NCBI RefSeq assembly: GCF_037392515.1
Contig: NC_090283.1
Location: 20,837,001 to 20,901,000 of the forward strand
Length of the DNA stretch: 64,000 bases
Reading direction: 5' to 3'
Source: Haliotis asinina
Lineage: Eukaryota > Mollusca > Gastropoda > Lepetellida > Haliotidae
This document shows positions 6,838 through 64,000 of the stretch, piece by piece. The first letter of the stretch is position 1; every line of letters starts with the position of its first letter. Position numbers and translations under genes: made by a program. Below the pieces are notes generated by a model. The model did no database searches, was not told the origin of the DNA, and saw only the letters and a list, made by a program, of their open reading frames with translations.

Positions 6838-6895
6838 GGCGAGCACTTAGCGTTACCCAGCACCCACCATGAGGAGGTGGCTCGCCACGGGTGCC
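6838..6895 (-). ncRNA. HDV-like self-cleaving ribozyme at the LINE 5' end (copy A)
   Basis: Read 5' to 3' on the minus strand, the element opens with GGCACCC, which pairs with GGGTGCT to make a 7-bp P1 whose first pair is G.U. P2 is GGCGAGC with GCTCGCC (6880-6886 and 6838-6844), all seven pairs intact. P3 is ACC/GGT closing a TCCTCAT loop. GGG follows P1, and the joining strand before P2 reads CTAA (CNRA form) with the putative catalytic C. P4 is essentially absent. Predicted cleavage is just upstream of 6895. Confidence 0.85.
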
Positions 6896-9736: not shown

Positions 9737-9743
9737 ACGATTG

Positions 9744-18904: not shown

Positions 18905-19170
18905 TTTAGTGAGTTAAGCTTTATATCGCACTCAGCAATATTCCAGCAATATGGCGGCGATTCGTAGATAATCGAGTTTGGACCAGACAATCCAGTGATC
19001 AACAGCATGAGCATCGATCTACACAATTGGGAACCGATGACATGTGTCAACCAAGTCAACGAGCCTGACCACCCGATCCCGTTAGTCGCCTCTTACGACA
19101 AGCTTAGTCGCCTTTTATGGGAAGCATGGGTTGCTGAAGCCCTGTTCTACTCAAGATCTTCACGGATCTG
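18905..19170 (-). mobile_element. SINE with (ACTC)-type tail (left arm)
   Basis: Read on the minus strand it contains AACCCATGCTTCCCATAAAA, GGCGACTAACGGGATCGGGT and ACATGTCATCGGTTCCCA, and ends GAATATTGCTGAGTGCGA...AACTCAC. The same repeat occurs at 26335-26615 and 58290-58570, and it is a family I associate with abalone DNA. Confidence 0.8.
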
Positions 19171-20034
19171 GAACGCAGAGCTTTACTTCCAGCAACATAT
19201 ACAGCACAGTTAGAATACTGAGTCTTGAAATTCTTTTGAATTTAGGTATTCTATAAATATAACAAAATTCAAGCTATATCTATGAAGTTATTTGTGAAAG
19301 CCCTAATCAAGAGTGACCGAACTCCACTGACTATTCTGACACATTAATAAACAGTGTTGTGAGATCTTTAAACTGTATTCAAATTTTTCTTGTTAATCCC
19401 ACTGACATTCGCCAATAACCACTTGTATATGAAATACACAATATGTGCTTTTTCAGAACAAATAAGTAATTAAGGATCCTCATCTGGGTAATTAAGGAAA
19501 GAACTCAAAATACTGCCACATTTCCAGTCACCAGTCTTGAGCTAATGGCCTTGTAAAGCCCCTCACAAAGGAAACACAAAGCACCAAAATTGTGTTTCTT
19601 TCTAGGTGACACACGGTATGTTGTCAAAGTTTCCGTTGTTGAATACATTCTATCGTGGGCAAAACTTACTACCCAGTAGTTTTAAGTGTATCTACCCAGT
19701 TTAGCGTGTTTCGTTTTGATATTGTGGTCTCCATTTTTAGTAATTCCCGTTTGCCCGTCCCGGCTTTTCTTCGTCCGAGGTTTAATGGGGTACTCTCCTA
19801 TTTGTCAGACCAGAAATAATTTACAACAGGGATAGGTCACTCGCTTGTTTTCTTTACCATTTGTACTAATTAACATGCGTCTCTTCATGCTCCAACGCAC
19901 ACAGTGACTTACCACGGCCGTCCCTTCCAATACATGCTAAAGAACGCAAAACTATCGTTAGATCAAATGTGTTAACATCGGCTTTTTATACTCTCCCTTG
20001 TCAGACATAACAATTGTCAGACAGGTTAAACAAT

Positions 20035-25256: not shown

Positions 25257-26227
25257 AGGCAATATTAAAACGAAACATGCTAAACTGAGTAGATACTCTT
25301 AAAACTACTGGGTAGGTACACGTTCTACACGTAAGGTTTTGCCCATAATAGAATGTATTCAACAACGGAAACTTTGACAACATAATTGTGTCACCTAGAA
25401 AGCAACACGGTTGTGGTGCTTTGTGTTTCCTTTGTGTGTGTGTGTTGAGGGGGAGGGGGGGGGGAGGTTACAAGGGACTAGCTCAAGACTGGTGACTGAA
25501 AATGTGGCAACATTTTGAGTTCTTTCCTTGATTACCCAGTTGAGGATCCTTAATTACTTATTTGTTGTGAAGAAGCACATATTGTGGATTGCATATACAA
25601 GTGGTTATTGGCGAATGTCAGTGGGATTAACAAGGCATATTTCAGTACAATTTAAAGATCTCACAACACTGTTTATTAATATGTCAAAATAGTCAGTGGA
25701 GTTCGGTCACTCTTGATTAGGGCTTTCGGATGAAGAAAAGCCGGGACGGGCAAACGGGAATTACTAAAAATGGAGACCACAATATTAAAACGAAACATGT
25801 TAAACTGGGTAGATACTCTTAAAACTACTGGGTAGGTACACTTTCCAAGCATACGGTTTTGCCCACGATAGAATGTATTCAACAACGGAAACTTTGACAA
25901 CATACCGTGTGTCACCCAGAAAGAAACACAGTTTTGGTGCTTTATGTTTCCTTTGTGAGGGGTTTTACAAGGCCATTAGCTCAAGACTGGTGACTGGAAA
26001 TGTGGCAACATTTTGAGTTCTTTCCTTAATTACCCAGTTGAGGATCCTTAATTACTTATTTGTTGTGAAGAAACACATATTGTGTATTTCATATACAAGT
26101 GGTTATTGGCGAATGTCAGTGGGATTAACAAGAAAAATTTGAATACAATTTAAAGATCTCACAACACTGTTTATTAATGTGTCAGAATAGTCAGTGGAGT
26201 TCGGTCACTCTTGATTAGGGCTTTCAC
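25257..26227. repeat. ~0.48-kb direct duplication inside the right arm
   Basis: Unit 1 (25257-25733) and unit 2 (about 25783-26227) share AATATTAAAACGAAACATG at the start, AACAACGGAAACTTTGACAA in the middle and GTTCGGTCACTCTTGATTAG at the end. The left arm has the unit once (about 19280-19730), so the duplication happened after the arms separated, or the left arm lost one. Confidence 0.8.
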
Positions 26228-26334
26228 AAATAACTTCATAGATATAGCTTGAATTTTGTTATATTTATAGAATACCTAAATTCAAAAGAATTTCAAGGCT
26301 CAGTTTTCTAACTGTGATGTATATATTGCTGGAA

Positions 26335-26615
26335 GTAAAGCTCTTCGTTCCAGATCCGTGAAGATCTGGAGTAGAGCAAGGCTTTAGCAACCCATGCTTC
26401 CCATAAAAGGCGACTAGGCTTGTCGTAAGAGGCGACTAACGGGATCGGGTGGTCAGGCTCGCTGACTTGGTTGACACATGTCATCGGTTCCCAATTGTGT
26501 AGATCGATGCTCGTGCTGTGCTGCTGATCACTGAATTGTCCGGTCCAAACTCGATAATCTACGAACCGCCGCCATACTGCTGGAATATTGCTGAGTGCGA
26601 CATAAAACTAAACTC
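26335..26615 (+). mobile_element. SINE with (ACTC)-type tail (right arm)
   Basis: Inverted partner of 18905-19170 and same family as 58290-58570. The tail reads CATAAAACTAAACTCA with the tandem repeat almost lost. Confidence 0.8.
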
Positions 26616-30472: not shown

Positions 30473-30699
30473 TTACATACAGTAAATGGTGTAGGTTGTC
30501 CAAGAATTGTCTTGGTGTGAAGTGAAGACTTTGTCAGTGAGCAGACAGTTGTCATCAGTCGACGCTGTTGCACTGTAGCTGAAGTCGATGCATGAATGAT
30601 GTTTGTGACAAACGATGCCACAGTCCCCGGCTGTTATTGCCAACGTGGTCAGGAACGGCATAGACACCTTCTTGTTCCAGGACGGCTTGTAGTATGAAC
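30473..30699 (-). CDS. Last exon: PAN/Apple-like domain of a secreted lectin-type gene
   Basis: Minus-strand exon with acceptor TTTTCTACAG just upstream of 30699, phase 1, ending at TAA 30473-30475. It encodes CGIVCHKHHSCIDFSYS...NCLLTD...WTTYTIYC, the Cys spacing and W-T-Y ending typical of PAN/Apple modules, which bind protein or carbohydrate outside the cell. It joins in phase to the exon ending at 31281. No polyadenylation signal is obvious just downstream. Confidence 0.65.
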
Positions 30700-31280
30700 C
30701 TGTAGAAAAGTAATTTTAGTGTGAACGGGATTCCTTCAACGTTATATTGACGCTATACTGGTCAACGTCATCGAGTCACGTTACACACCATCTGCAATGT
30801 CTCAGAGTCAGACTGCCAAGTCCATCTTTATGGGTAAAAGTGACTTGACTCGAAGTCAAGATCGCAGACCAACCGATACATCTTTATGGGCAAAAACTCA
30901 ACCTGTCTAACGAAGATAACTTGGATCCAAACAACCCTAGGAACTTCCAAAGTTCGAGGGAACATTTCGAAATAGTTTACTGATAAGTGTTTACGTAACG
31001 CAAACCTCATAACCTCTAAATAATCAAGCTTGAAAGGCAGTCCGTTTTATCAGTCACTTATATGACCAACGTCGGGGTTAATGACAGACAACAACGTCAC
31101 CGCCACTGACGACCAGATCCATTCATTGGTCTCGTAGGACCAGCAGTTTGCCACTTCGGTGATCTCACAGGACCAGAGTTGGTTCCGCAGAGCTCAGTTA
31201 CCTCTGTACAAAACGAAAATATATTAACTTACTGACTCCTACTTCAGAGAATATGACGTAGTACTCCCTGGTTTACTCAC

Positions 31281-31523
31281 GATATGGCTTCATTGCCCCT
31301 TCCCCTTGCACGTCAACATGTCCGATCATGAGGTATGTGGAACTTGTCGATCGTCTTGTGACCCGGACAAAGCGGACAGGGAAGGTGGCATTGCATGTGA
31401 AAGTGAACTTCTCACCAGGAGCAACACTGGTGGCTACTGCTCCACACCACACCACCTGGACATCAGAGCAGAGGCTGATATCCTTGTCCGTCACCTCCAC
31501 GGATGCTTGTTCCATGTAGGTAT
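31281..31523 (-). CDS. Middle exon: second half of an F5/8C or fucolectin-like domain
   Basis: Bounded by acceptor CTGTTTACAG (ending at 31524) and donor GTGAGT (31280-31275). Its length of 243 bp keeps phase 1 at both ends. The product contains VVWCGAVATSVAPGEKFTFTC, then FVRVTRRSTSSTYLMIGHVDV, resembling the second half of galactose- or fucose-binding discoidin/F-type folds (strand pattern and the Cys pair). The split of one domain over two phase-1 exons fits exon-shuffled extracellular proteins. Confidence 0.65.
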
Positions 31524-31712
31524 CTGTAAACAGTCCATGTTTGGTATCACACATAACATGCATGCTTTTTACATGGTAAAGGCCTACTTTCTTGTAGTTA
31601 GGAAAATAATATGGTTACTTTGAATGGTATAGCGTTGAGCCAATTTAACAAACTACATTGAACGTCTTCAAATAAATAAGATGTGAATCGTCAAATCTAT
31701 GTGAACACTGAC

Positions 31713-31907
31713 AATAGTGACTTCTTGCTGTGAGGGTGATGTTGCTGATGGTGAAGAAGCCCCTCAGGTCCACCTCCCACCAGAGGTCGTTGCCTGGGAC
31801 TGTTATTGATTCAGTGTTTGAATAATATATATCAAGAGCACGGCTAGCAACATAGCCGTGGTAGGTACCGCTCTGTTTTGCATCTTTCCCTCTTGAAATG
31901 CTTTCAC
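31713..31907 (-). CDS. Exon: first half of an F5/8C or fucolectin-like domain
   Basis: Acceptor TTCTCTTGCAG precedes 31907, and donor GTCAGT follows 31713. The 195-bp length keeps phase 1. It encodes GKDAKQSGTYHGYVASRALD and then NDLWWEVDLRGFFTISNITL, the A.QS....A..A.D and WW.VDL signatures of F-type lectin and discoidin-like domains. A signal-peptide exon should lie further right (31.9-33.5 kb), but I could not identify it. The role is probably secreted recognition or adhesion. Confidence 0.7.
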
Positions 31908-33423
<1,516 letters not shown>

Positions 33424-35947: not shown

Positions 35948-35960
35948 ACTCAGGAATGAA
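35948..35960. repeat. Target-site duplication, 5' side of LINE copy C
   Basis: ACTCAGGAATGAA here versus ACTCAGGGATGAA at 40466-40478, one mismatch in 13. It abuts GGCACCC, the first bases of the element. Confidence 0.85.
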
Positions 35961-36018
35961 GGCACCCATGAAGAGCCACCTCCTCGTGGTGGGTGCTGGG
36001 TAACGCCAAGAGCTCGCC
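35961..36018 (+). ncRNA. HDV-like ribozyme at the LINE 5' end (copy C)
   Basis: P1 GGCACCC with GGGTGCT is perfect. The TCCTCGT loop, GGG and a CCAA joining strand are kept. P2 is weakened on its 5' strand (GAAGAGC against GCTCGCC, two mismatches), so activity of this copy is doubtful. Confidence 0.75.
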
Positions 36019-36548
36019 GACACCCCCGTAGTGGACCCGGGGGGATATTTGGTCCACCAACCCGTTTGCCGTGGGTTGCGTCCCGTGTTGGTGGAGGACG
36101 GGATCCTGGTGGTTGAGGGCACTGGGGCTGTTAACTGCGTTCCATTGCCCAACACACCACTTCGGCCCTGACTTCACCTAGACGGGTGGTCGAATGGGCC
36201 CGGTTCAACCAATCGGCTGGTCATGCCAAGCCCTGTGCATGGAGGATATATATCATTGCACAAATTTTATTTGGATTTTTACTTTCGGTCTTGGCCTATT
36301 TGTTCATTGAGCTTTTCAAATTTTAAAATGCATTTTTGACGTTCTGAACTTTTGCCTAGAGTCTTATGCCCAGAAGGCGGTGGCTCATGGGCCAATCTGG
36401 TAGACTAATTATTTCTAATTCTTCTGCTGGAGTATATCATCCGGGTATCCTTGGTGTTGTAAGCTGGAGGTCTGCTTGCTTTAGCATTGTCCTTGTGATA
36501 CTCCGTGGTGGGTGGGGCGCTCGGATGATGAACCGTATTACACTAAAT

Positions 36549-37781
36549 ATGGCTTATGAAACTCCAACAAAAAAAACAAAACGTCCACTTGATATTGACC
36601 CTGTTGATACTGACCATAGACCGTCTACATCGATTGAGTATTGGCCACGTTTCATTGTGATTGAGACTCCTGATAAGACACCTTTGCTGTATCCAAAGGT
36701 ATTCAAGGCATTGCTGGGGATGTGACGAACATAAGACGCTTACGTTCGGGTGCCCTGCTAGTCGAGTGCGGGAAAAAGCAGCAAGCAACAAATCTGATGA
36801 ATATTAAATCTTTCGTGGGCATTCCCGTCACGGTTTCTGCACACAAAGCCTTGAATACAAGTAAAGGTATCGTGAGAGATAGAGATCGATTGTTTGATGA
36901 CATGTCGGAACTTGATATAGGATCTGAAGTGAAGGATCAGGGTGTACTATATGTCAAGCGCTTTTCAACTCACAGAAACAACAAAACCATCAAAACAAAT
37001 ACGTATCTGTTTACTTTCTCATGTCCAAACGCTCCAAAATCAGTGTAGGCAGGCTACTGCAACATACAAGCTCAGGTGTTTTAAATGCCAGAAATATGGA
37101 CACGGTGTAAATACTTGCACATTGTCTGTTGTGTGTGCTCACTGTGGTGAGAAGACACACACAACAGAAGATTGTGACAGCGATTATACAAAATGCACCA
37201 ATTGCTCAGGCGACCATTCGTCCTTTTCTAAACAGTGTCCTATTTGGAAAGAGCAAATGGAGATCAATAAAATAAAATTCACTCAAAATATCTCTTTTTC
37301 TCAGGCCAAAAAACTGGTAAAGAGATCTGATCTTACAGAAAGTTATGCAACAGTAGCAAAAACATTATCGGGGTCTAGCTCTAAAACAACATCAACCACA
37401 GGCTGCCAGACTACCTTGACTTGGATAAATTGCGATTCTCCACAGCTTTTGTACCCTGCTATGTCATCACAGACTGAGGAATCACTTCCTAGTACCTCAA
37501 GGTTTTCTGATCACAAATCATCATCTCAGTCACACTCAAAGTCTCAATCGACAGCTGATAGTCAACAAACTGTGCAAAGTAAACCGAAGCCTAAGGCTGA
37601 TGCTTCAAAACAACAAAGTGGCAGAACTCCTAAAGGGTCACAGAACAAAATTCAATTGTTCAATAAATACGGGTCTCTTGAAGACATGGACGTTTCTGAA
37701 AACGTCAGTTCTAGGGCCCATAGCTTGTCGCCCTCCAAAAGAGTGCGGGGTAGATCCCCAATAAATCCTCCCAAAAGATAG
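36549..37781 (+). pseudogene. LINE ORF1, CCHC knuckle protein (copy C, frameshifted)
   Basis: ATG at 36549. A ~15-bp deletion near 36687, between short CCTTTG-like repeats, shifts the frame. The central region continues at 36722-37048 in a second frame. A further deletion before the first knuckle shifts it again. The last frame (36942-37781) holds all three knuckles (CFKCQKYGHGVNTC, CAHCGEKTHTTEDC and a CX2CX3HX6C) and the conserved PINPPKR C-terminus. Confidence 0.82.
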
Positions 37782-37795
37782 TTTATTCCAATAAT

Positions 37796-39911
37796 ATTGT
37801 ACAGTGGAACTGCAGAGGATTGAGGACTAATTTACATGAATTACAGCTATTAGTCCAAGATTTTACACCTTCAGCGTTATGTCTCCAAGAGACATATTTA
37901 AAACAAGCAGATGCATTTGACCTTCGTCAATTTAATGCGTATCATTGGTTTTCACCTCCGGGTGATAGGGCCACTGGCGGATCACCCATTCTAGTCAGAC
38001 AAAACGTTATTCAAAGCCCCGTTTCACTTAATACTAATATGCAGGCTGTTGCAATGAGAATTACTTTACTCTATATTTCGTCATCTTCGACGTTTGCCCA
38101 AACTAATTTTCAAGCTTTATATGACCAACTCCCGAAGCCCTGTATTATAATGGGAGACTTAAATGGGCACAACCGACTCTGGGGTAGTGTAACTACAAAC
38201 ACTAAAGGTAAATTGTTGGAGGACTTTTGTTCTGACAATGATTTGTGTATTTATAATGATGGTTCCAGCACGTATTTACATCCTGGTACAGGGACCTATT
38301 CTGCTCTTGACTTGTCACTCACAAATTCAGAACTACTAACTGAATTCGAATGGTCAGTCCACGATGACCTATGTGGAAGTGACCATTTTCCTACCGTATT
38401 AAAAGCTGTAACTCCATCCGATGTTCCTCCATCATCAAGACGAAATTTTAAAAAGGCTAACTGGGCTTTATATGAAACACTGTGTGCTAAAAAACTTAAA
38501 CCTGAACGTTTTATTGACGTTCCCGATGCTATTAAATGCTTTTCTGATGAACTGAATTCCAAGCTGATGAGTGTATACCAAAGTCCTCTGTAGTTCCACA
38601 CATAAGAAAACCATGGTTCAACGATGAGTGCAAACAAGCTAGGAAGGCAAGGAAAAAAGCAGAACATTATTTCCGTCGCCATCCTATGGTGCACAATTTA
38701 AATAAATTTAAAATTTTAGATGCTAAAGCACGGCGTACTTTTAAACAGAACAAACGCCAATCTTGGCAAAATTATGTATCCAAAATAAATTCTCGGACAC
38801 CTATGTCCAAAGTATGGAACATGGTCCAGAAAATCAAAGGTAAAGGTACTAAATCTAGTGTCCATCATCTTAGGCATGGAGATCAACTGCTTACTGATAA
38901 ATCAGATATTGCGAATAAACTGGGCGAAACTCTTGCTAAACATTCTTCCTCTTCAAATTATACACCTAAATTTCAGCAATATCAAAAAGAACAAGAAAAG
39001 AAAATTATTAATTTCAATTCTGATAACGGGGAAGATTATAATGAAACGTTTTCTATTCATGAACTCCATACTGCTCTTGATCAAGCTCATGACACTGCTA
39101 CTGGAGCTGATAACATACATTATCAACTCTTGAAACATTCACCAGAATCCTGTCTGGAAACTCTCCTAAATATTTTTGATGGTATTTGGACATCGGGTAA
39201 CTTTCCTCCTTCATGGCGTGACGCCACAGTAGTACCAATACCTAAACCTGGACGTGATCATACCGATCCATCCAAATATCGTCAGATATTTTGGTACTTG
39301 GAAACAAATAATCTTATCACAGATATACATTGTGGTTTCCGGAAAAACAGAAGTACTGTCGATCACTTAGTGCGACTGGAATCATTTGTTAAAACGCACT
39401 AATTACTAAACAACATGCTGTGTTACCAAGCCACGTAGGCATTTCTGGTAACACAATGGCCGATCTTGCTGCTAAGGCAGCACTCAACAAATCTGTGACA
39501 CCACTTCTTATTCCATACAGTGATTTTAAAGCTAACATTAGATCTTATATCCGTGATCGGATGCAAAACAAGTGGGACACCCAAGTAGGCATCAATAAAT
39601 TTCATGAACTAAAACCCTATATTGGTTATACCTACTTGGGTTGTCAGTCCAGATTTGAAGAGGTTATTTTAAGACGATGTCGTATTGGCCATACTAGATA
39701 TACTCATTCTTACCTATTGAAAGGTGAGGATCCTCCGTTTTTCATCCCTTGTGATGACAGAACCACGGTCAAGCATATCCTGCTTGACTGTGTTGAATTC
39801 TCCATCATAAGGGATAGATATTTCAATGTAAAAACAATTAAGGACCTTTATAACAGCATAAGTTCTCATTTAATTCTTGGATTTGTAAAAGAAATTGAAT
39901 TTCATCATTGA
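37796..39911 (+). pseudogene. LINE ORF2 with RT-core deletion (copy C)
   Basis: The endonuclease domain (LQETYL, IIMGDLNGHNRLWG, CGSDHFP) runs to a frameshift near 38560. The linker and RT start continue at 38686-39402. At about 39421 the sequence jumps from the KQHAV block directly to PSHVGISGN of RNase H, removing motif A, GVPQGS, the FVDD box, the thumb and the acidic residues of RNase H. A C-terminal zinc-finger region (CDDRTTVKHILLDC, with the first Cys replaced by Phe) remains. A second small deletion lies near 39285. Confidence 0.85.
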
Positions 39912-40465
39912 ATTTTGATTATTATGTTCTGTAGATAGCTGCATTTTAATTCATGGTAGTTTAGATTAGTAACTTGAATTGTTAGTGGCTGTACTCTCAA
40001 AGGGGGTTTGAAGTACTGTAAAATTATTGTCCTCCTGAGAGGGTACGTAAGTCCCAAAACATTTCATGCACGTTTAGACTTCCACTGTTTTTAATCGTAG
40101 CATATGTGTATTTTTAATTTTTGGCTAGATGGGACTAAATTGCTAACGGTTGAGGGGACGGTGTAAATCCAACTAGGGTCCATGCAGGTAGCAAAGGTAC
40201 CGTAAGTCCCCAGAGCCACTAGTATGGTGATCTACCTTCAGTTGTTGGCAATCTGTGGCCTGATTTTATGTTGTATTGTCCGATAGTGATATTAGTTTTA
40301 ACTTTCCACGCTAGTTTTAATTCAAATTGTGATATCCTAGTTGTTTTACTGTCCTTCGCCGACAGATTTTATAATATATATATAGTCCTTTTCTTTGTTA
40401 AATGTTCTCGTCGCGATGTGGCTGAGATATTGCCGATGTGACGTTAAATATTAACTCACTCACTC
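39912..40465 (+). mobile_element. LINE 3' UTR and (ACTC)n tail (copy C)
   Basis: Contains the family landmarks CCATGCAGGTAGCAAAGGTA and GTGATATCCTAGTTGTTTTACTG-like segments, then CTCGTCGCGATGTGG and the tail. No ORF. Confidence 0.85.
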
Positions 40466-40478
40466 ACTCAGGGATGAA
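40466..40478. repeat. Target-site duplication, 3' side of LINE copy C
   Basis: ACTCAGGGATGAA, partner of 35948-35960. Its first bases are continuous with the ACTC tail, a microhomology seen at the other 3' junctions too. Confidence 0.85.
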
Positions 40479-42900: not shown

Positions 42901-42913
42901 TCCACCACGCACA
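42901..42913. repeat. Target-site duplication, 5' side of LINE copy D
   Basis: TCCACCACGCACA, exact partner of 50819-50831, abutting the first G of the ribozyme. Confidence 0.95.
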
Positions 42914-42971
42914 GGCACCCGTGAACGGCCACCTCCTCGTGGTGGGTGCTGGGTAACGCCAAGAGCCGTTC
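42914..42971 (+). ncRNA. HDV-like self-cleaving ribozyme at the LINE 5' end (copy D)
   Basis: P1: GGCACCC (42914-42920) pairs with GGGTGCT, first pair G.U. P2: GAACGGC (42923-42929) pairs with GCCGTTC (42965-42971), perfect. P3 ACC/GGT closes TCCTCGT. GGG follows P1, and the joining strand CCAA before P2 has the CNRA form. P4 is minimal. Known HDV-like ribozymes in other LINE groups sit at this place and release the element RNA 5' end from a host cotranscript. Confidence 0.88.
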
Positions 42972-43176
42972 AAACCCCCGTGTGGACCCTGGTCAACTAG
43001 GTCCATAGCACCCCATTGCTGGTTGCAAGGAGCAACCGAATTGAGCAACCTGTTTGCCGTGGGTTGAGACCCTTGTCGGTGGAGGACGGTAGTCTGGTGG
43101 TTGAGGGCAGTAGGAGCCTGAACCGTGTTCCTGTTGCTCAACACACCACTTTGGCCCTTACTTCACCTAGACGGGT

Positions 43177-43199
43177 GGTAGAATCGGACCGATTCTATC
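43177..43199 (+). promoter_or_regulatory. Conserved covarying hairpin in the LINE 5' UTR
   Basis: TAGAATCGG and CCGATTCTA pair perfectly here. In copy A the stem is GGTTGAA/TTCAACC (6646-6652, 6662-6668, minus), and in copy E GGTAGAA/TTCTACC (60006-60028). Copy C has one mismatch. Base changes on both sides suggest a selected RNA structure. Its role is unknown. Confidence 0.55.
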
Positions 43200-43527
43200 A
43201 ATCGGCTGGTCACGCCAAGCCCTGTGTATGGACTTGTACGTCACTGCACAAATTTAATTTGAAAATGTTTTACATTTGGACTTGGTACATCTATTCATAT
43301 CAAATGTCAATGATTTGCAATATGCTCTTTTGCTCTTTGCCTAGAGTCTTATGCCAGAAGGCGGTGGCTCATGGGCCAATCTGGTGGATTAGCTATTTAT
43401 AACTCTTCTGCTGGAGTGTATCATCCGAGTATCTTTGGTGCTGCAAGTTGGAGACCACTTTAGCATTGTCCTTGTGATACTCCGTGGTGGGTGGGGAGCT
43501 CGGATGATGAACCTTAAAACATTAATT

Positions 43528-44801
43528 ATGGCTTACGAAACCCTTATCACCAAGAAAAAACGTCCTCTTGACACGGATCCTGATGTTAATGAACAAAGAC
43601 CATCCACATCTATTGACTATTGGCCACGTTTTATAGTACTTGAGACTGTTGACAAGACTCCTTTGAAGCTGAACCCTTTTGATGTTTCAAAAGGCGTACA
43701 AAGCATAGCAGGAGATGTTAAAAATGTTAGACGTTTGCGTACAGGTTCACTTCCTATTGAATGTAATAAGAGACAACAGGCAAATAACCTCCTGGCAACT
43801 AAATCTTTTCTCGGCATTCCCGTATCAGTCTCTGCCCACCGAACGCTTAACACCAGCAAAGGCATAGTAGGAGACCGAAACCGCCTTTTTGCTGATATGC
43901 TGGAAATTGATATTGCCTCTGAGATGAAGGAACAAGGTGTGTTGCATGTAAAACGTTTCACCACCCGTAAACACAACGAGATCCAACAAACACCTATTTG
44001 TTTTCATTCTCTACTCCGACTGCTCCTAAATCCATAAAGGCTGGTTACTGTCATATCAAGGTGGAATCATATATTCCGAATCCACTGAGATGTTTCAAGT
44101 GCCAGAAGTATGGGCATGGCGTCAATACTTGCACATTGTCTCACTGTGGTGAGAAGACAAACACAACAGAAGATTGTGACAGTAGTTATAAGAAATGCAC
44201 TAACTGTTCAGGAGACCATTCCTCTTTTTCAAAAGAGTGTCCAATATGGAAGCAGCAGATGGAAATAAACAAACTGAAATTTACCCAAAATATTAGTTTT
44301 TCAGAAGCAAAACAGATTGTTCAAAGATCTGAATTAACAGAAACGTATGCTTCAAAAACTAAGGCATCATCTGAGGCGACGAATAAAGCAACCAGATCAA
44401 CTTCAGGTTGCCAAACATATTTGACGTGGGTGAACACTGATTCCCCACAAACTTTTGCACCTGCAATAGCTACCCAAACTGCTGAGTCACTTCCTGGCAC
44501 GTCTCAAAGTCAACCAGAGCCCGATCATGATCATAATGTGTCATCTCAGTCTACCACAAGGTCGCAATTGTTGTGTAACGTGCAACAAACTGCTAAAGGC
44601 AAAAGTAAACATAAGCTGGATTCTTCCCAAAAACAAAGTGACAGAGCCCCAAAAGGGTCCGAAAATAAGATTAAACTTTTCAACAAATATGGATCACTTG
44701 AGGACATGGACGTGTCCGAAAATGTCCATTTTAGGGCACACAGCTTGTCGCCCACCAAAAAGGTACGGGGTAGATCCCCAATAAACCCTCCTAAAAGATA
44801 G
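43528..44801 (+). pseudogene. LINE ORF1 (copy D), one frameshift and a broken second knuckle
   Basis: ATG at 43528 gives the YWPRFIVLE and LNPFDVSKG blocks. Near 43983 the frame shifts, and the frame through 44801 continues with SFSTPTAPKS, the first knuckle CFKCQKYGHGVNTC, a second knuckle missing its first Cys and with His changed to Asn, an intact third, and the PINPPKR end at 44801. The stop codon overlaps the ORF2 frame by a few bases. Confidence 0.83.
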
Positions 44802-46799
44802 TTTACTCCCACAATGTTGTACAGTGGAATTGCAGAGGACTAAGGCATAATTATAATGAGTTACAGTTATTGGTCCAGGATTGTACGCCGCCAGCAGTCT
44901 GTCTGCAGGAGGCTTATTTAAAGCAGACAGATCTTTTTGAGCTACGTCATTTCAATGCTTATAATTGTTTCTCACCTCCGGGTGACAGGGCCACTGGAGG
45001 ATCTTCAATCCTAGTCAAACAGAATGTTATCCATAGCCCCATTACACTCACTACTAATCTTCAAGCAGTTGCCGTCCGCCTCACTTTACATGTTACTCTT
45101 ACATTATGTTCTTTGTATGTCTCACCGTCTACAGCTCTTCAGAAGGCCGACCTTCAAACCTTATACGATCAACTTCCCAAAACGTGTATTATTATGGGAT
45201 ATTTGAATGGCCATAACCCACTCTGGGGTGGTACAACTACGAATACTTCAGGTAAACTATTAGAGGAGTTCTGTTCAGATAACGATTTATGCTTATATAA
45301 TGACGGTTCTAACACATATTTACACCCTGGGACAGGGACCTATTCTGCTCTCGACTTGTCACTCACAAATTCAGAACTACTAAATGAACTTGAATGGTCA
45401 GTCCACGATGATCTCTGTGGAAGTGACCATTTTCCTACTATACTAAATTCTGTAACTCCATCTAATATTCCTCCATCATCAAGGCGAAATTTTAAAAAGG
45501 CTAACTGGGCTTTATATGAAACACTGTGTGCTGAAAAACTTAAACCAGAATGGTTTATTGACGTTCCTGATGCTATTAAATGCTTTTCTTATGAATTGAA
45601 CTCTATAGCTGATGAGTGTATACCAAAGTCCTCTGCAGTTCCATATATTCGAAAACCATGGTTCAACGATGAATGCAAACAAGCTAGGAAGGCAAGGAAA
45701 AAAGAAGAACATTATTTCCTTCGCCATCCTATGGTGCATAATTTAAATAAATTTAAAATTTTAAATGCTAAAGCGAGGCGTACTTTTAAACAGAACAAAC
45801 GCCAATCTTGGCAAAATTATGTATCTAAAATAAATTATCGGACACCCATGTCCAAGGTATGGAACATGGTCCAAAAAATCAAAGGTAAAGGTACTAAATA
45901 TGGTGTCCATCCTCTTAGACATGGAGATCAGTTACTTACGGATAAATCGGATATCGCAAATAAACTGGGCAAAACCCTTGCTAAACATTCTTCCTCTTCT
46001 AATTATTTACCTAAATTCCAGCATTATCAACAACAACAAGAAAAGAAAACTATTAATTTCAACTCAGATAATGGGGAAGATTATAATGAAACTTTTTCTG
46101 TTCATGAGCTCCATACTGCTCTTGATCAAGCTCATGATACAGCTACAGGAGCTGATAACATACATTATCAACTCCTGAAGCACTTACCAGAATCCTGTCT
46201 GGAAACTCTCCTAAATATTTTTGATGATATTTGGACATCGGGTAACTTTCCTCCTTCATGGCGTGATGCCATAGTAGTACCAATACCTAAACCTGGACGT
46301 GATCATACCGATCCATCCAATTATCGTCCGATTTCATTAACAAGCTGTGTTTGCAAGACCATGGAACGCATGATAAATAATCGACTAATTTGGTACTTGG
46401 AAACAAATAACCTTATAACTGACATACAGTGTGGTTTCCGGAAAAACAGAAGTACTGTCGATCACTTGGTGCGTTTAGAATCATTTGTTTAAAACGCACT
46501 AATTAATAAACAACATGCTGTGTCTATCTTTTTTGATCTCGAAAAAGCATATGACACAACCTGGAAATATGGTATTTTAAGAGATTTACATGACTTTGGC
46601 TTGCGAGGTCGTTTACCTCAATTCATAGCCAACTTTTTAAATGATAGACAGTTTCAAGTTCGAGTGGGTTCTACCCTGTCTGATCATTACAATCAGGATC
46701 AGGGTGTTCCACAAGGCAGTAGTTTGTCTGTTACACTTTTAAACGATTCAATTGAAGGATCGTTATTTGTGGATGATTTTAATATTTCTTGTCGTGGTA

Positions 46800-47195
46800 A
46801 AAACATCCATTCAACGGCAACTGCAGTTGTGTTTAAACAAGATTAATAAACGGTGTCTTGAAAATGGCTTTAAATTCTCTAAATCAAAAACTAACTGCAT
46901 ACATTTGTATCGTAAATACAAATCACATGAAGACCCTGAACTGTCTCTAGATGGCACTCCCATTAAAGTTGTGAAGAAAGCCAAGTTCTTGTCTAGGGAA
47001 AAACATTCATACTTTTGAACGGCAACTGCAGTTGTGTTTAAACAAAATAAATAAATGGTGTCTTGAAAACGGCTTTACATTTTCTAAATCGAAAACTAAT
47101 TTTATACATTTTTGCAGAAAATATAAGCCACATAAAGACCCTGAACTATCTCTAGATGGCACTCCCATCAAAGTTGTAAAGGAGGCCAAGTTCTT
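46800..47195. repeat. Direct duplication of ~195 bp inside LINE ORF2 (copy D)
   Basis: CGGCAACTGCAGTTGTGTTT through GGCACTCCCATTAAAGTTGT-like sequence occurs twice (about 46814-46990 and 47021-47190). The two units differ at many bases, so they were diverged when joined, which suggests template switching between different family members rather than simple slippage. Confidence 0.8.
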
Positions 47196-47701
47196 GGGCC
47201 TAATCTTTGACTCCCACTTAACATTTCTGCCTCATATTAAGTCCCTTAAAACTAAATGCCTGAAGGCTCTTGACTTGTTGAAAGTTGTTTCCAACTCAAA
47301 GTGGGGAGGGGATCAAGCAACCCTCTTACATCTATATCGATCAGTCGTGCGTTCGAAACTCGATTATGGCTCCATCGTATATGGTGGAGCCTGCAAAAGC
47401 AACCTTAAACTTCTTGACTCTGTCCACCATCAAGGCTTAAGACTTTGTCTTGGGTCTTTCAGAACTTCACCTATTGATAGTCTCTACATTGAGGCCGATG
47501 AACCATCTCTTACTCAACGTCGTATAAAATTGTCTTTACAATACATTACTAAATTACATTCTAATGAATCTAACCCTGCCTATAACTGTGTGTTCAATCC
47601 GCTTTATGTGGATTTGTGTAACAAAAAGGCTTCTCTTGTACCACCTCTAGGGCACAGAATTAAACCATTTATTTCTTCAGCTGGTATAGAGCTGGAAAGT
47701 A

Positions 47702-47729
47702 TACATATGGAAATTAATTAAGCAACACC
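47702..47729. repeat. Left terminal inverted repeat of the Tc1-like element
   Basis: TACATATGG then the shared core. It differs from the right repeat at two or three positions. Confidence 0.9.
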
Positions 47730-47969
47730 AAATTCAAAGACACATAAAAACTTAACAAAGTTTAACGAAGTAATTTTGATGATTGATTATTCAATTTTGA
47801 TGTATTGACATACAGCATGAGCTTTTCATGGGTTGATATGACGCGCGTGAAGCTTGCACAGCGCACGTGCATTGCTTTAACCTCAACTTTCGAAAAATGC
47901 ACTTTTTCCCTGGGGTGTTTACAAGCGCAGGTTGTCGATTGCATTCGGTTTTTCATTCATTTCAATGTC

Positions 47970-48995
47970 ATGGCACGTAGGAAATTATCAGAGGCCACTC
48001 GTTGGCAAATAATCGGCATGAGGAATGCTGGTATGTCTCTAAGACAAATCGGGACTCAAATCGGACGACATCATTCCATAATTTCAAAACTTTTGAAAAA
48101 ATACCGGGCCACTAATGAAGTTAAAGACCTGCCTAGACCAGGAAGACCCAGGAAGACCACAGTCCGGGAGGACAGAGCTTTACTGAGACTTGTACGGCGC
48201 AGGTCCTTCGACTCGAGCTCTCGGTTGAGACAGGAGTGGCTTCCAGGGAGACCCATCTCGAACAGGACTGTTCGGAATCGTCTGAAAGCTGCAGAATACC
48301 GGGCAAGGAGGCCAATCAAGCGACCCAGACTGTCTCCAGCCCATAAGGCAGCCCGACTGGCCTGGTGTAATGACCGTTTGCACTGGAACATTGCCTCTTG
48401 GAGGAAGGTCCATTTCTCAGATGAGAGCCGGTTCTTGCTGCACATGGTGGACGGTCGTACTCGGGTCTGGAGGCAGAGGAACACAGCAATGGCTCCACGG
48501 AACATCCAGGAGACTGTGGCCTTTGGGGGAGGTTCCGTTATGGTATGGGGGTGCATTTCCATGAACTGCAAGTTGGATATCATTACCATCCGTGGCAACC
48601 TTAACGGTGTTCGTTACCAACAGGAGGTTCTTGACAGGGCTGTGGTACCTCATTTTGAGAACCATCCTCTGGCAACGAGACCCATATTTATGGACGACAA
48701 TGCTAGACCTCACAGGGCGCATGCTGTAAATGATTTTTTGCGGCAAAATGCAATTGACAGAATTCCATGGCCTGCCATGAGCCCTGACCTCAACCCCATT
48801 GAACATTTGTGGGACTTTATTGGCCGTCGTGTGAGGCAGAGAGACCCACCAGTCCATAATCTCAACGAATTGACGGCTGCCCTGCATGAGGAGTGGAACA
48901 GGATCCCCCAGAATCAGATCCGGAGACTCATCCAAGGAATGAGGAGGCGTCTGGAATCGGTGGTGCGTGCGCAGGGAGGACACACTAGATATTGA
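47970..48995 (+). CDS. Tc1-like transposase, DD34E, apparently intact
   Basis: 341 residues, the usual Tc1 length, starting at the ATG at 47970 (MARRKLSEAT). The frame is open for 55 codons further upstream, but family length favours this start. Residues 1-50 form a helix-turn-helix (NAGMSLRQIGTQIGRHHSII). A GRPRK motif near 58-62 is the usual linker, and a second HTH lies at about 65-115. The catalytic triad is D151 (HFSDES), D243 (MDDNARPH) and E278 (NPIEHLW), with exactly 34 residues between the last two. The Gly-rich box FGGGSVMVWG is present at 185-194. The enzyme excises the element and reinserts it at TA. No frameshift or stop is seen. Confidence 0.95.
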   Translation: MARRKLSEATRWQIIGMRNAGMSLRQIGTQIGRHHSIISKLLKKYRATNEVKDLPRPGRPRKTTVREDRALLRLVRRRSFDSSSRLRQEWLPGRPISNRTVRNRLKAAEYRARRPIKRPRLSPAHKAARLAWCNDRLHWNIASWRKVHFSDESRFLLHMVDGRTRVWRQRNTAMAPRNIQETVAFGGGSVMVWGCISMNCKLDIITIRGNLNGVRYQQEVLDRAVVPHFENHPLATRPIFMDDNARPHRAHAVNDFLRQNAIDRIPWPAMSPDLNPIEHLWDFIGRRVRQRDPPVHNLNELTAALHEEWNRIPQNQIRRLIQGMRRRLESVVRAQGGHTRY

Positions 48996-49289
48996 TGAAA
49001 GTCGGTGTGCAGACTCTCAGATGACTGTTCTTTCTTTCCATGTGACATTTGTGTTAATACACCTGACAACAACGTCTGTGGATGAATAGTAAATTGTGTC
49101 CATTTTTTCATGAATTTAAGACAGTTTTAAGAATTTGGATTTCGTTGCAATAAAGCAAAGTCTTGATACTTTTTCCCTTTAAGTTGTTTGTCAGAGATCG
49201 TCTGTTGAATAAAAAAGTGTCAAACTATATCAACCCGGCATATTTTGATTGTCAGAACACTTCAAAGTTGCTCCAATAGAAAAAATTGG

Positions 49290-49317
49290 GGTGTTGCTTG
49301 ATTAATTTCCAGGTGTA
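49290..49317. repeat. Right terminal inverted repeat of the Tc1-like element
   Basis: Reverse complement of 47702-47729 with few mismatches, followed by TA at 49318-49319. Confidence 0.9.
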
Positions 49318-50818
49318 TATATCACCTTCCCGTCTCCTTTCTTCTCCTCCTTGGCAATTGGTTAGGCCACAAGTTGACCTAACATTAACATCATTTAAAA
49401 AATCAGAAACAAATGATTTACAATATAAACAAGAATATCATCAACTGAAACATACATATAGCAATTACAAACCCTTATTTACAGATGGATCCAAGGACGG
49501 TGGTGCAGTAGCTAGTGCCACTGTCACTGGAACCAGAACAATATCTTCTAGAATTCCAGATAACAGCTCTATTTTTACTGCAGAAGCAAACGCCATATTA
49601 ACAGCTCTTAAATATATTCAAAGACACCCTAAACATAAACAGTATATAATCTATTCCGACTCTCTTTCTTGCCTTCAGGCGATTAAAAATATTTCTTGTA
49701 AACATCCACTTTTAATTGATATTATTGAATTGTATAATAATCTTGCTACTGGCCAATACGACATCGTATTCTGTTGGTTACCCAGTCACATAGGCATTTC
49801 CGGTAACACATTGGCTGATCTTGCTGCTAAGGCAGCACTCAACAAATCTGTGACACCACTTCTTATTCCATACAGTGATTACAAAGCTAGCATTAGAACT
49901 TACATCCGTGATCTGATGCAGAAGAAGTGGGACACCCTAGTATGTATAAATAAATTACACGAAATAAAACCGTATATTGGTTACACCTACTTGGGTTGTC
50001 AGTCCAGATTTGAAGAGGTTATTTTAAGACGATGTCGTATTGGCCATACTAGATATACTCATTCATATCTTTTAAAAGGTGAGGATCCTCCATTTTCTAT
50101 CCCTTGTGATGAGAGAGTCACGGTCAAGCATATTCTGCTTGACTGTGTCGAATTCTCCATCACAAGGGATAAATATTTCAATGTGAAAACAGTAAAGGAT
50201 CTTTTTACAAACATTAATTCTCATTTAATTATAGGTTTTTTAAAAGAAATTAATTTTTTGGTTGAATTTTTAATAACATGTTCTATAAATAGATGTATTT
50301 TAATTATTGGTTGTTTAGATTTGTAACTAGAAATGTTAGTGGTTGTACCCTCAAAGGGGGTTGAAGTATTGTAAAATTATTGTCCTTCTGAGAGGGTATG
50401 TAAGTCCACAAACAGTGAAAGTAAATTCTAAATTTCCAGGTTTTTAATTGTAGAATAAGTGTCTTATTATTGTATGGCTAGATTTCACAAATTGCTGACG
50501 GCTGAGGGAATGATGTAAATCCAGCTATGGTCCATGCAGGTAGCAAAAGTACTGTAAATCCCCATGGTCCCTAGTATGGTGATCTACCTTCAGTTGTTAG
50601 CAATCTATAGCCCATTTTTACATTGTATTGTCCTCTGTAGATAAATTGTTTTAGGTATAGTTACTAGTTTTATATTCTACTCTGTGATATCCTAGTTGTT
50701 TTACTGTCCTTCGCTGACAGATTTTATAATAGACATACATTTCATTTTAGTATTAAATGGTCTCGTCACGATATGGCTGAGATATTGCCGATGTGACATT
50801 AAATATTAACTCACTCAC

Positions 50819-50831
50819 TCCACCACGCACA
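50819..50831. repeat. Target-site duplication, 3' side of LINE copy D
   Basis: TCCACCACGCACA directly after the ACTC tail. Confidence 0.95.
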
Positions 50832-58289: not shown

Positions 58290-58570
58290 TTCAGGCCCGC
58301 GAAGGTCCCAGGGTAGAATAGGCCTTCAGCAACCCATGCTGGTCATAAAAGGCGACTATGCTTGTTGTAAGAGGCGACTAACGTGATCGGGTGGTCAGGC
58401 TCACTAACTTGGTTGACACATGTCATCGGTTCCCAACTGCACAGATCGATTTTCATGTTGTTGGTCACTGGATTTTCTGGTCCAGACTTGATTATTTACG
58501 GGAGAATATTGCTGACTGCGGTGTAAAACTAAACTCACTCACTCATTCACTCACTCACTGTACAGGTAAT
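58290..58570 (+). mobile_element. SINE with (ACTC)n tail, third copy
   Basis: Same family as 18905-19170 and 26335-26615: AACCCATGCTGGTCATAAAA, GTGATCGGGTGGTCAGGCTC, ACATGTCATCGGTTCCCA, a GAATATTGCTGACTGCGG end and ACTCACTCACTCATTCACTC. Confidence 0.85.
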
Positions 58571-59788: not shown

Positions 59789-59846
59789 GGCACCCGTGGC
59801 AAGCCACCTCCTCGTGGTGAGTGCTGGGTAACGCCAAGAGCTCGCC
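59789..59846 (+). ncRNA. HDV-like ribozyme at the LINE 5' end (copy E)
   Basis: GGCACCC pairs with GAGTGCT (one A.C mismatch), and P2 GGCAAGC with GCTCGCC (one mismatch). TCCTCGT, GGG and CCAA are kept. Probably a weakened copy. Confidence 0.75.
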
Positions 59847-60327
59847 AACAGCCCCGTTGTAGACCCGGGGGCATATTGGTCCACCGTGGGTTGTGGCCCT
59901 TTGTTGGTGGAGGAAGGGATCCTGGTGACTGAGGGCAATAGGTTCCTGGAACCGCGTTCCTCTTGCAAAACACACCTCTTTGGCCCTGACTTCGCCTAGA
60001 CGGGTGGTAGAATGGGCCCGGTTCTACCAATCGGCTGGTCATGCCAGGCCCTGTGCATAGTGAGTGTTATTGCACAGATTTATTATATTATTTGGTCTTG
60101 GCTTTTTGAAATTACAATTATTCCTGATAGTATATTGCCTAGAGTCCTGTGCCAGAAGGCGGTGGCTCATGGGCCAATCTGGTTGTTCCTGTGGATTAAC
60201 TGCAGTATACCATTCCTGTAACCCTTTGGTGTCAGTTTGCTGGAAGTCCGCTTACGTATGACATCGCCCTTGTTCGCGTTTCATGGCAGGCAGGGAACAG
60301 GTTTACTGAACCAATATACATTTCAAC

Positions 60328-61600
60328 ATGGGTAAACACAATCCCAAAAAAACCAAAACGTCATCTTTCAGAATCAGATTCTGAACTTGATTCTGATGAA
60401 AATGAAATCGTTACCAAATTATTGTATTCTGAAAGGGATACTTGGCCACGATTTCTGGTGCTGGAAGCAAAGGGTGAGCGTGCCCTTTCTTCCTACTCGC
60501 CATTTCTTTTGGAAAAGGGTCTACAAGGTAAAGCCGGTGTCTTGAAAAACGTTACAAAATTACGCTCTGGAGGTCTTTTGGTTGAATGTGCCAGGAAACC
60601 ACAAGCCATTAATCTTATGACTTCAACCAAATTAGCAGACATTCCAATTACCTGTTCTGCACATAAAACCCTTAATTTCTCCCAGGGTCTTATCCGTGAT
60701 AGAGACCGAAGCCTCGCTCATGAATCTATTGAAGGCATCGTATCAGAGCTTAGAAGTCAAGGTGTCATTGATGCCAAGCGGTTTACTTATCGTAAAGATG
60801 ACCGTGCTTTCCCGTCAAATACATACCTTTTGACTTTTGACGCGCCAGTACTGCCAAGTTCTATCAAGGTTGGATGTTTTTCTGTGCCTGTGGATCTTTT
60901 TATTCCACGCCCTACCCGTTGTTTCAATTACCAGAAGTTTGGTCATGGGCAAAATTCTTGTAAGAATAAACTGACTTGTTTCAGATGTGGAGAATCTGAT
61001 CATGATGGGAAGATGTGCACTAACACCATTAAGTGCTCACATTGCAAAGGCGATCACATGGCATCATCAGAAGACTGTCCCATGTGGAAATATGAAGCCA
61101 GTGTGCAGAAACTGAAATATGAGAAACGAATCAGTTACTCTGATGCCAGACAACAAGCACGACTACTTATACCTGAAAATGCTGCACGTCCATCTTGTCT
61201 GTTCCTTGTCAAACTAATTTAACTCACATCGGAACATCCAACACCCCTTTCCGAAACAGTACTGATTCAAAAAGCAACACCAGATTCAAAACAGCCATCT
61301 TTAAAACCAACAGGAACAACATCATCTACACAAACAGAATCCCATCAAATGAAAATGTCAAAGTGTTCCAAAGTAGATATTAAGAAAAAGCAGAGTCAGT
61401 CAGATAGATTGCCGAAGGCACTAAAAGACTCTGTCCTACTTCACAATAAATATGGATTGCTTGAAGATATGGATACTGAAGTATCCACCCGTGTGACCGC
61501 CGGTGGCCACCCAAGTGGTCACTCACCGAAAACGAAAGGGAGAGCAGTATCTCCTGTTACTGTTCCTCAGATATTTAAACCACCATTTGTTATTCACCTA
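60328..61600 (+). pseudogene. LINE ORF1, CCHC knuckle protein (copy E)
   Basis: ATG at 60328 with a frameshift in an A-run at about 60350. The main frame at 60422-61222 holds TWPRFLVLEAK, GLIRDRDRS and three knuckles. In the first, the second Cys is Tyr (CFNYQKFGHGQNSC); the others are CFRCGESDHDGKMC and CSHCKGDHMASSEDC. After a break near 61190 a Lys/Ser-rich C-terminus continues in other frames (61349-61600) and includes HNKYGLLEDMD, matching the NKYGSLEDMD of the other copies. Confidence 0.8.
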
Positions 61601-61609
61601 ATCTATTAC

Positions 61610-64000
61610 AACGGAATTGCAGAGGACTTAAAAATAACTTAAATGAAGTACAGTTGTTGGTTCAAGATTTTAAACCGTCAGCACTATGTATCCAAGAGAC
61701 GTATCTCAAACATACCGATGCATTGATTTAAGGTTCTTATCATTCATTCTTTCCTCCAGGGAATAAAGCAACTGGAGGTTCAACTATATTAGTTAGACAG
61801 AATATCATTCATAGCCCTGTTCACCTGAATACAAATCTCCAAGCCGTAGCTATTTATCTCAGCTTGCACATTGCGATCACTCTATGCTCTTTGTACATTC
61901 CACCCTCGTTTGCTCTTCAGCAAACTGATCTTCAGAATCTATATGATCAGTTACCAAAGCCCTGTATTATCATGGGCGATTTTAATGCGTACAACCCTCT
62001 ATGGGGAAGTACAATTACAAACAATAAAGGCAAGGTTATTGAAAATTTTATATCTGAAAATAGCTTATGTGTTTTTAATGACGAATCAAACACCTATTGA
62101 CATCCTGGTACAGGATCCTATTCTGCACTTGATCTGTCCCTCGCTGATTCTACAACGAATTTGACTGATGTCATGTCATGATGACCTTTGCGGAAGTGAC
62201 CAGTTCCCAACTGTCCTAGAGGTTGACCCACCTTTATTTGGAATTTTAATAAAACCAACTGGTCTTTATATGAAACATTGTGTATGGAAAAATTAATACC
62301 AGAAAATGTTATCAATATATCAGACCCGATAGAGTCAGTTGTTTTCTGCTCAGTTAAATGAAATTGCTGACCAGTCTGTTCCTAAGTCCTCTGCAGTTCC
62401 TCAAATTCGTAAACCCTGGTTCAATAATTATTGTAAACAGGCCAGAAAGTGTAGAAGGAAAGCTGAAAAGTATTTTCGCCGACACCCCACTGTACATAAT
62501 CTAGATAAAGTAAAAATTTTAAATGCCAAAATAAGCGTCAGGCGTGGAGAAATTACGTTAGTAAAATAAATTCACGCACGCCAATGACAAAGGTGTGGAA
62601 CATGATTAAAAGAATAAAGGGCAAAGGTTCGAAATCTACTGTTCATCATCTAAAGGATGGTGATAATATATTAACTAACAAAACTGACGTTGCAAATAAA
62701 CTTGGTGAAACTCTCACCAAGCATTCATCTTCATCCAATTACGTCCCTGAGTTTCAAAAGTGTCAGACACAACAGGAGAAGAAAAAATTAAATTTTAACT
62801 CAGACATCGGTGAAGATTATAATGAATTATTTTCAATACATGAGCTACATACTGCCCTTGAGCAAGCTCATGATACAGCTACAGGGGCTGATGATACCCA
62901 CTATCAGCTCCTGAAGCATTTGCCCGAAGCATTTGGAAACGTTGCTAAACATTTTTGATTCAGTATGGACATCAGGGAATTTCCCAACTTCCTGGCGTAA
63001 TGCCATTGTAGTCCCAATATCAAACCCTGTCCGGGATCATACAGTTCCGTCCAATTACAGACCAATATCTCTCATTAGCTGTGTCTGTAAAACCATGGAA
63101 CGTATGGTGAATAATAAATTATTTTGGCATCTTGAAACCAATAACCTTATCACAAATATTCAATGTGGTTTCAGGGAAAATCGTTGTACCATTGATCATC
63201 TGGTACGCCTAGAATCCTTTGTTAAAATGCTCTAGTAAATAAACAACATGCAGTATCGATTTTCTTTGATCTTGAAAAGGCCTACGATACCACCTGGATG
63301 CATGGCATTTTGAAGGATTTACATGACATCGGTTTAGGGGTCGTTTACATCTTTTGATATCACAGTTTTTAAAAGACAGGCAATTTCAAGTCCGAGTGGG
63401 CTCAACCCTGTCTGATCATTACAATCAGGATCAGGGAGTCCCACAAGGCAGTATTTTGTCTGTAACACTTTTTAGTATCACGATAAACAGTTTATCCAAG
63501 GTTTTAAATGATTCAATCGATGGATCCCTTTTTGTGGATGATTTTAATATTTCTTGTCGAGGTAAAAATAGGTATACTATTGAACGGCAACTACAATTGT
63601 GCTTAAACAAAACAAACAAATGGTGTCTTGAAAACGGTTTTACATTTTCTAAGACAAAAACCAATTGTATACATTTTTGTAGACAATACAAACCGCATAA
63701 AGACCCAGAATTGTTTTTAAATGGCGCTCCCATCCTCTTAAGGAGGCCAAGTTCTTGGGTCTGATTTTCGACTCTCATTTAACTTTTCTCCCCCAATATC
63801 AAATCCCTAAAAATCTAAATGCCTGAAGGCGTTGGATTTATTAAAAGTCGTTTCTAATTCAAATTCTAATTGAAAGTGGGGAGGAGATCAAACTACCCTC
63901 CTTCACCTGTACAGATCCCTGGTCCGTTCCAAACTTGATTATGGCTCCATCGTATATGGTGGAGCCTGCAAAAGCAACCTGAAACTACTAGCTTCTGTCC
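61610..64000 (+). pseudogene. LINE ORF2 (copy E, 5' part; runs off the window)
   Basis: Endonuclease blocks (QETYLKH, IIMGDFNAYNPLWG) are interrupted by a frameshift near 61725 and a TGA at 62098-62100. The linker continues at 62339 and 62584-62958, RT at 62933-63235 and 63354-63764 with GVPQGS and an intact FVDD box at about 63533-63543. At least five frame breaks are visible. The thumb region continues to the last base. Confidence 0.85.

Follow-up and report, generated by a model that had tools for sequence, protein, structure and literature searches.

Self-cleaving ribozymes at the 5′ ends of LINEs are known from several lineages. The ribozymes of R4, RTE, L1Tc and Drosophila R2 are described as cutting at the 5′ junction of the element, and those of most other R2 elements as cutting 9–36 nt upstream of it (PMC3774820). 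Within the ingi clade, which is placed in the I superfamily (PMC10294476, PMC11203168), HDV-like ribozymes are known from the L1Tc/ingi elements of trypanosomatids, where the ribozyme at the LINE 5′ end frees the element RNA from cotranscripts and where P1 and P1.1 differ strongly from those of R2 and HDV (PMC4035085). Forms without P4 are known mainly from phages; the minimal drz/theta ribozymes, with the catalytic C in J4/2, are almost confined to phage genomes, where many have a tRNA as neighbour (PMC10879173). An HDV-like ribozyme in which 5 nt replace P4 has been described from the abalone Haliotis discus (Webb and Luptak 2011, as cited in PMC3774820).

The window, the whole 64-kb stretch of Haliotis asinina DNA analysed here, holds five LINE 5′ ends, at 6895 and 9944 on the minus strand and at 35961, 42914 and 59789 on the plus strand, and all five lie at the coordinates and on the strands given by the original prediction. 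The elements are LINEs of about 6 kb with endonuclease, reverse transcriptase and RNase H. Copy A (864–6895, minus strand, ~6.03 kb) has an ORF1 of 331 aa (5307–6302, minus strand), in which zinc-knuckle-like C/H motifs can be seen by eye and which gave no match to Pfam, and an ORF2 with an open frame of 1208 aa (1419–5045, minus strand) that matches Exo_endo_phos_2, RVT_1 and RNase_H. A C-terminal C-x2-C-x7-H-x4-C motif following RNase_H in ORF2 is invariant in 30 aligned sequences, namely copy A and 29 relatives. The 3′ end of the LINE is TTAAATATTAA, followed by CTCA repeats. Since an ORF1 together with an ORF2 carrying an AP-type endonuclease, reverse transcriptase and RNase H is the architecture of the I superfamily, the elements are assigned to it, and the description of the family as I-like holds. 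The I-superfamily clades reported from molluscs are Nimb and Ingi, plus an unknown one in O. sinensis (PMC10294476); the Haliotis column of Table 1 in PMC11203168 has no Nimbus or Ingi entry.

Copy C (42914–50818, plus strand) is split by a Tc1-like transposon, so that LINE homology stops at 47703 and resumes at 49317; an open frame for the Tc1-like transposase lies at 47805–48995 (plus strand), and its best relative is 99% identical. Copy E is a 5′ fragment, ~206 nt long (9739–9944, minus strand; the inner end was placed by eye), copy B (35961–40465, plus strand) is internally deleted, and copy D (59789–64000, plus strand) belongs to a more divergent family and runs off the window. The LINE family has apparently been active recently. 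R2 elements have a single ORF, a restriction-like endonuclease and a 28S target, whereas the abalone element has two ORFs, an AP-type endonuclease and dispersed sites, and falls outside the R2 clade. Elsewhere in the window, 30473–32007 (minus strand) contains exon-like frames of a Haliotis gene family in which several proteins bear the name fucolectin-like; three joined frames from this segment gave 36 protein matches, 36 of 36 from Haliotis and the best from H. asinina.

The predicted HDV-like ribozyme of copy C occupies its positions 1–59 (42914–42972, plus strand), with cleavage predicted just 5′ of G 42914. From G1 onward the RNA reads GGCACCC (P1), G, TGAACGGC (P2), C, ACC (P3), UCCUCGU (L3) and GGU (P3′), and then GGGUGCU (P1′), GGG, UAACG, CCAA, GA and GCCGUUCA (P2′). 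The 5′ strand of P1 (GGCACCC, 42914–42920) pairs with GGGTGCT at 42944–42950, placing a G·U pair at the predicted cleavage site, and the 5′ strand of P2 (TGAACGGC, 42922–42929) pairs with GCCGTTCA at 42965–42972. P3, ACC/GGT with the loop L3 TCCTCGT, lies at 42931–42943, and the CC of this loop (42935–42936) can form P1.1 with GG 42951–42952. The J4/2 strand CNRA, here CCAA, is at 42959–42962, with 42959 as the putative catalytic C. A C at this place in J4/2 and a closing G1·U pair, both marks of HDV-like ribozymes, can thus be read from the sequence. A P4 stem, which varies among HDV-like ribozymes and is missing from the minimal ones, is absent, and just the 5 nt TAACG (42954–42958) stand in its place between GGG and the putative catalytic C.

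P1 GGCACCC/GGGTGCT with its terminal G·U, GGG after P1, the CNRA strand and the short P3 ACC/GGU closing UCCUCGU were all seen as predicted, with a variant L3, UCCUCAU, in copy A and with CCAA, CUGA and CUAA as forms of CNRA among the window copies. The claim that one layout is shared by all five 5′ ends stands in full for 6895, 9944 and 42914, where the nested double pseudoknot of P1, P2 and P3 (P1.1) is complete in HDV-like order; at 35961 and 59789 the layout is broken or mismatched. P1 has its full 7 bp in four of the five copies, a C-A mismatch being present at 59789, and P2 has its full 7 bp in three (6895, 9944 and 42914). The ribozyme of copy A (6837–6895, minus strand) has P2 GGCGAGC/GCTCGCC, and the intact one of copy E has P2 GAACGGC/GCCGTTC and CTGA. 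Besides its P1 mismatch, the ribozyme of copy D has one mismatch in P2. In copy B (ribozyme 35961–36018) P2 pairs at 5 of 7 positions, since a type III 5′ arm is joined there to a type II 3′ arm of the P2 types described below; this is a natural non-cognate P2, possibly produced by recombination between copies.

The element begins where cleavage is predicted. Over 70 genomic copies the information per position stays within 0.06–0.36 bit before the element (−12 to −1) and rises to 2.0 bits at G1 itself, and from this jump it follows that homology begins at the predicted cleavage site. Target-site duplications (TSDs) were examined in nine copies, A, B and C of the window and L119–L124 from elsewhere in the genome. 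In five of the nine the duplication adjoins G1 exactly: 13 bp in copy C (TCCACCACGCACA, 42901–42913, plus strand, repeated at 50819–50831), 13 bp with one mismatch, as judged by eye, in copy B (35948–35960 and 40466–40478), and 12, 14 and 12 bp in L119, L120 and L123. Copy A has a 10-bp duplication (6899–6908 and 854–863), with three extra A before G1 at the 5′ junction. None was seen in L121 or L122, and the LINE 3′ end of L124 was not found in the stretch examined. Target sites are dispersed, with TSDs of 10–14 bp. The junctions agree with cleavage and are no proof of it, because they would look alike if transcription simply started at G1.

A descriptor search, proposed together with the prediction, was run on the whole window. 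With P2 of at least 6 bp it returned exactly 6895, 9944 and 42914, and the same descriptor gave 0 matches in 60 dinucleotide shuffles of the 64-kb window. When the 72-mers of the five copies were shuffled and P2 was allowed to be as short as 4 bp, there was 1 match in 20000. A less strict descriptor recovered four of the copies, missing 59789 and placing the P2 of 6895 elsewhere, and added one window site at 57267 that is probably a spurious match. No Rfam family reached its gathering score in the 64-kb window. Below threshold, in a scan that covered copy 42914 alone, the best match was RF02682 (HDV-F-prausnitzii), which scored 28.2 bits where gathering requires 44 (E 6e-4 for 111 nt), followed by RF00094 (23, with 50 required) and RF01787 (14.5, with 37 required). 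Copy C resembles RF02682 in P3/L3 and in the GCNAAGA region, and departs from it in the P4 region, where 15 model positions stand against 1 nt.

The core pattern CCTCCTCGTGGNNNGTGCTGGGNAACGCNRAG has 3294 matches in the 1.143-Gb genome (1652 and 1642 by strand), and a reversed control pattern has 0 in the same genome. The sample of 70 copies is the first 70 of 100 matches listed, all on contig C1; it is non-random and includes some duplicated flanks. In this sample 63 of 70 copies have a complete P1, the 5′ strand of which lies outside the pattern. P2, also outside the pattern, forms all 7 bp in 61 copies and 6 of 7 in the remaining 9. The N of CNRA is C in 38, T in 27, G in 4 and A in 1. Fifty-one of the first 100 listed cores fall within the ~2.1 Mb at 0.77–2.9 Mb of contig C1 (G000), whereas the genome averages 2.9 per Mb; this part of the contig is a LINE-rich chromosome end. 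Short non-autonomous carriers of the ribozyme, sought as a run of three CTCA units within ~1.5 kb downstream, were found at 0 of 30 loci.

Replacing the putative catalytic C by A, G or T in the pattern gave 78 matches against 3294. Reading this ratio as selection on the C was considered and rejected, since any repeat with a C in its ancestor would show such a ratio; it shows only that the core matches are non-random. The 78 mutants are no rarer than changes at a position of the P1 3′ strand (29 matches, looser pattern), and the present copies therefore decay without visible selection at the C. Conservation of the putative catalytic C is thus a property of the family level only.

The helices were followed through distinct copies. 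All loci fetched from the genome and the window amount to 103 distinct copies by a 90-nt key, and they show three P2 types, GGCGAGC/GCTCGCC, GAAGAGC/GCTCTTC and GAACGGC/GCCGTTC. Taking P2 as cognate when each arm is within one base of its type, 95 of the 103 are cognate: 64, 19 and 12, respectively. A type III arm combined with a type II arm was scored in two copies: copy B of the window, and L101, which has a 3′ arm one base off either type. In six copies one arm fits no type. By source, cognate P2 was found in 4 of 5 window copies, 63 of 64 from the core pattern, 22 of 28 from the P1-variant pattern and 6 of 6 from a 76-nt query. As P2 is part of that query, a fair count leaves its six copies out, and 89 of 97 are then cognate (64, 19 and 6). 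In the 64 distinct copies from the core pattern, which leaves P2 free, P2 is fully paired in 55 and paired at 6 of 7 in 9.

Covariation in both P1 and P2 had been put forward as a check on the fold. It is present in P2, where 4 of 7 pairs change on both sides, and absent from P1 (0 of 7 pairs) in 36 rows, which comprise 31 distinct sequences of the 70 copies and the 5 window copies. Doubly changed cells in P2 number 30; the 500 shuffles gave 8.5 (sd 2.1), and slid structures 0–8. As for doubly changed pairs, 147 of the 500 shuffles also reached 4. The cell counts are inflated by shared descent, and the three types amount to two compensated states beyond the first. Double changes in P1, P3 and P1.1 were not found in the 36 rows, and P1.1, being invariant, gives no covariation test. 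P1 is nearly invariant, with the same sequence in 63 of 70 copies. Compensation was also sought at 29 loci of the genome where the fourth base of the P1 3′ strand differs, and P1 is imperfect at every one; support for P1 is therefore a matter of conservation only.

The sequence, the compensation in P2, the junctions and the genome-wide copies together uphold the central claim that a molluscan I-like LINE begins exactly with an HDV-like fold. Judged from sequence, the first ~59 nt of the LINE are in all likelihood a compact, P4-less HDV-like self-cleaving ribozyme that would release the element RNA at G1, and the predicted ribozyme very probably cuts the element transcript exactly at its first base. 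The element would be transcribed by readthrough from upstream host DNA, and the ribozyme would fold cotranscriptionally, on emerging. The J4/2 cytosine would act as in HDV, with the cut just before G1 and, as product, a full-length LINE RNA with a 5′-OH G. We propose that a promoter exactly at the element start would be unneeded, because the ribozyme would release the full-length RNA. The uncapped RNA would then be translated and copied by target-primed reverse transcription; since it would start at G1, new insertions would begin at G1 and carry the ribozyme along. In this scheme we infer the cleavage, its cotranscriptional course, the independence from a promoter and the translation of uncapped RNA. 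A mechanism as in R2, RTE, R4 and L1Tc (PMC3774820, PMC8256844) appears the most economical reading. Against it weigh the lack of compensation in P1, the decay at the putative catalytic C, the two defective window copies, the Rfam scores below gathering, element starts that a plain transcription start would also leave, and the relative L002 described below, in which the ribozyme model had no match.

Other readings have to be weighed against self-cleavage at G1. A conserved 5′-UTR structure that does not cleave, and acts instead as a promoter, a translation start or a binding site for an element protein, would suit a P1 that is more invariant in sequence than folding needs, and the same 77 nt of L1Tc are also reported as a promoter (PMC8256844). 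We regard it as quite improbable here, because conservation falls on the HDV core, namely L3 UCCUCG, GGG after P1 and CNRA, positions partly fixed by the pattern in the genome sample and free in the five window copies. Furthermore, the G·U pair falls on the first base of the element, and P2 is compensated in the pseudoknot topology, a pairing that a promoter would not need.

A real ribozyme may also have its main use elsewhere, in translation initiation of the uncapped RNA or in regulating host transcripts with a copy of the element inside. This alternative, which we hold to be unlikely, draws on the discussion of HDV-like ribozymes as a possible IRES for R2 (PMC8256844), on a possible role in host mRNA cleavage in Leishmania 3′ UTRs (PMC4035085) and on the 3294 core copies in the abalone genome; however, the element starts and TSDs coincide with the predicted cleavage site, as 5′ processing predicts. 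The empty shuffles of the window, together with three P2 types that are cognate in nearly all copies chosen without regard to P2, leave hardly any room for chance or shared descent alone, by which the helices would be a frozen accident of a young repeat family, even though nearly all copies have one P1 and one P3 sequence and thus show no covariation there.

Relatives of the LINE were sought outside the abalone. Two pattern scans of viral contigs for the ribozyme gave 0 matches, and a protein-profile scan of viral contigs for LINE relatives found none. The same profile scan of genome contigs found 11 relative loci, apparently animal DNA that has ended up in assemblies of symbionts or metagenomes. 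L001–L006 are LINE sequences in bacterial symbiont or metagenome assemblies, among these a scaffold of 537 kb with the label Solemya velum gill symbiont, and look like host contamination or misassembly. In the 11 loci no ribozyme was found by descriptor or model (best E 0.92); among the closer relatives, at 48–50% identity, a long stretch upstream of ORF1 is present only in L002, from the Solemya symbiont assembly. L002 and the abalone LINE have downstream 5′-UTR boxes in common, CAACCTGTTTGCCGTGGGTTG and CCTAGACGGG ... ATCAATCGGCTNGTCA, as seen by eye. Despite these boxes, the upstream stretch of L002 matches neither the ribozyme model nor the descriptor.

A head motif, GTCGTAAGAGGCGACTAA(CGGG), occurs in a SINE-like repeat of the window at 19082–19097 (minus strand), 26424–26439 (plus strand) and 58366–58381 (plus strand, one mismatch). 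The same motif GTCGTAAGAGGCGACTAA is found in the 5′ region of L002 at ~7951–7968, inside a stretch closed, by eye, by GTTGCCCCC/GGGGGCAAC. Rfam gave no ribozyme match for the L002 head, for which twister and hammerhead were considered, and none for the SINE-like motif. The GTCGTAAGAGGCGACTAA head is possibly an alternative structured 5′ module. An inverted repeat of the window (19002–19665 and 25856–26519; 664 nt, 97% complementary, 6.2 kb apart) includes two of these SINE-like repeats. A bolder reading, which we offer as doubtful, would have the P4-less ribozyme maintained through compensatory change in three parallel LINE lineages of one animal, with several thousand potential cleavage sites sown in its genome, and 5′ modules exchanged between LINEs and borrowed by SINEs; the exchange of 5′ processing modules would follow from L002, where no ribozyme was found upstream of ORF1 and where another, possibly structured head with GTCGTAAGAGGCGACTAA is present instead.

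Set beside the described systems, the abalone ribozyme resembles those of R2 in its predicted cut of LINE RNA at or near the 5′ junction, and the silkmoth R2 ribozyme, as described in PMC3774820, is likewise without P4. It resembles those of L1Tc/ingi in its place at the LINE 5′ end; unlike the abalone ribozyme, the L1Tc/ingi ribozymes are described with P4, and they also have the Pr77 promoter function. With the minimal drz/theta ribozymes of PMC10879173 it has the lack of P4 and the C in J4/2 in common, whereas its host is an animal. A close counterpart is the ribozyme cited from Haliotis discus, of the same genus and with 5 nt at the place of P4, like UAACG here; going by the description in PMC3774820, it is probably of the same kind. 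The original prediction knew of no description in this clade. On this point the ribozyme is probably not wholly new to the literature, given the form cited from Haliotis discus (PMC3774820). Among the matches listed, which were titles and openings of abstracts and covered little of the subscription literature, no publication was found that assigns such a ribozyme to the abalone LINE or gives the exact 5′ end of this LINE, the number of its copies or the compensated P2 types.

Our analysis introduces no new kind of ribozyme and no new role. It puts a predicted HDV-like ribozyme of minimal form, lacking P4, exactly at the start of an animal LINE that encodes RNase H and is present in many copies, and it makes the abalone LINE a likely home for the Haliotis discus ribozyme. 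With three P2 types compensated by nature and thousands of copies, the family offers test material, and direct experiment is feasible since abalone can be sampled for RNA. Self-processing at the 5′ end would thereby be extended to another LINE lineage.
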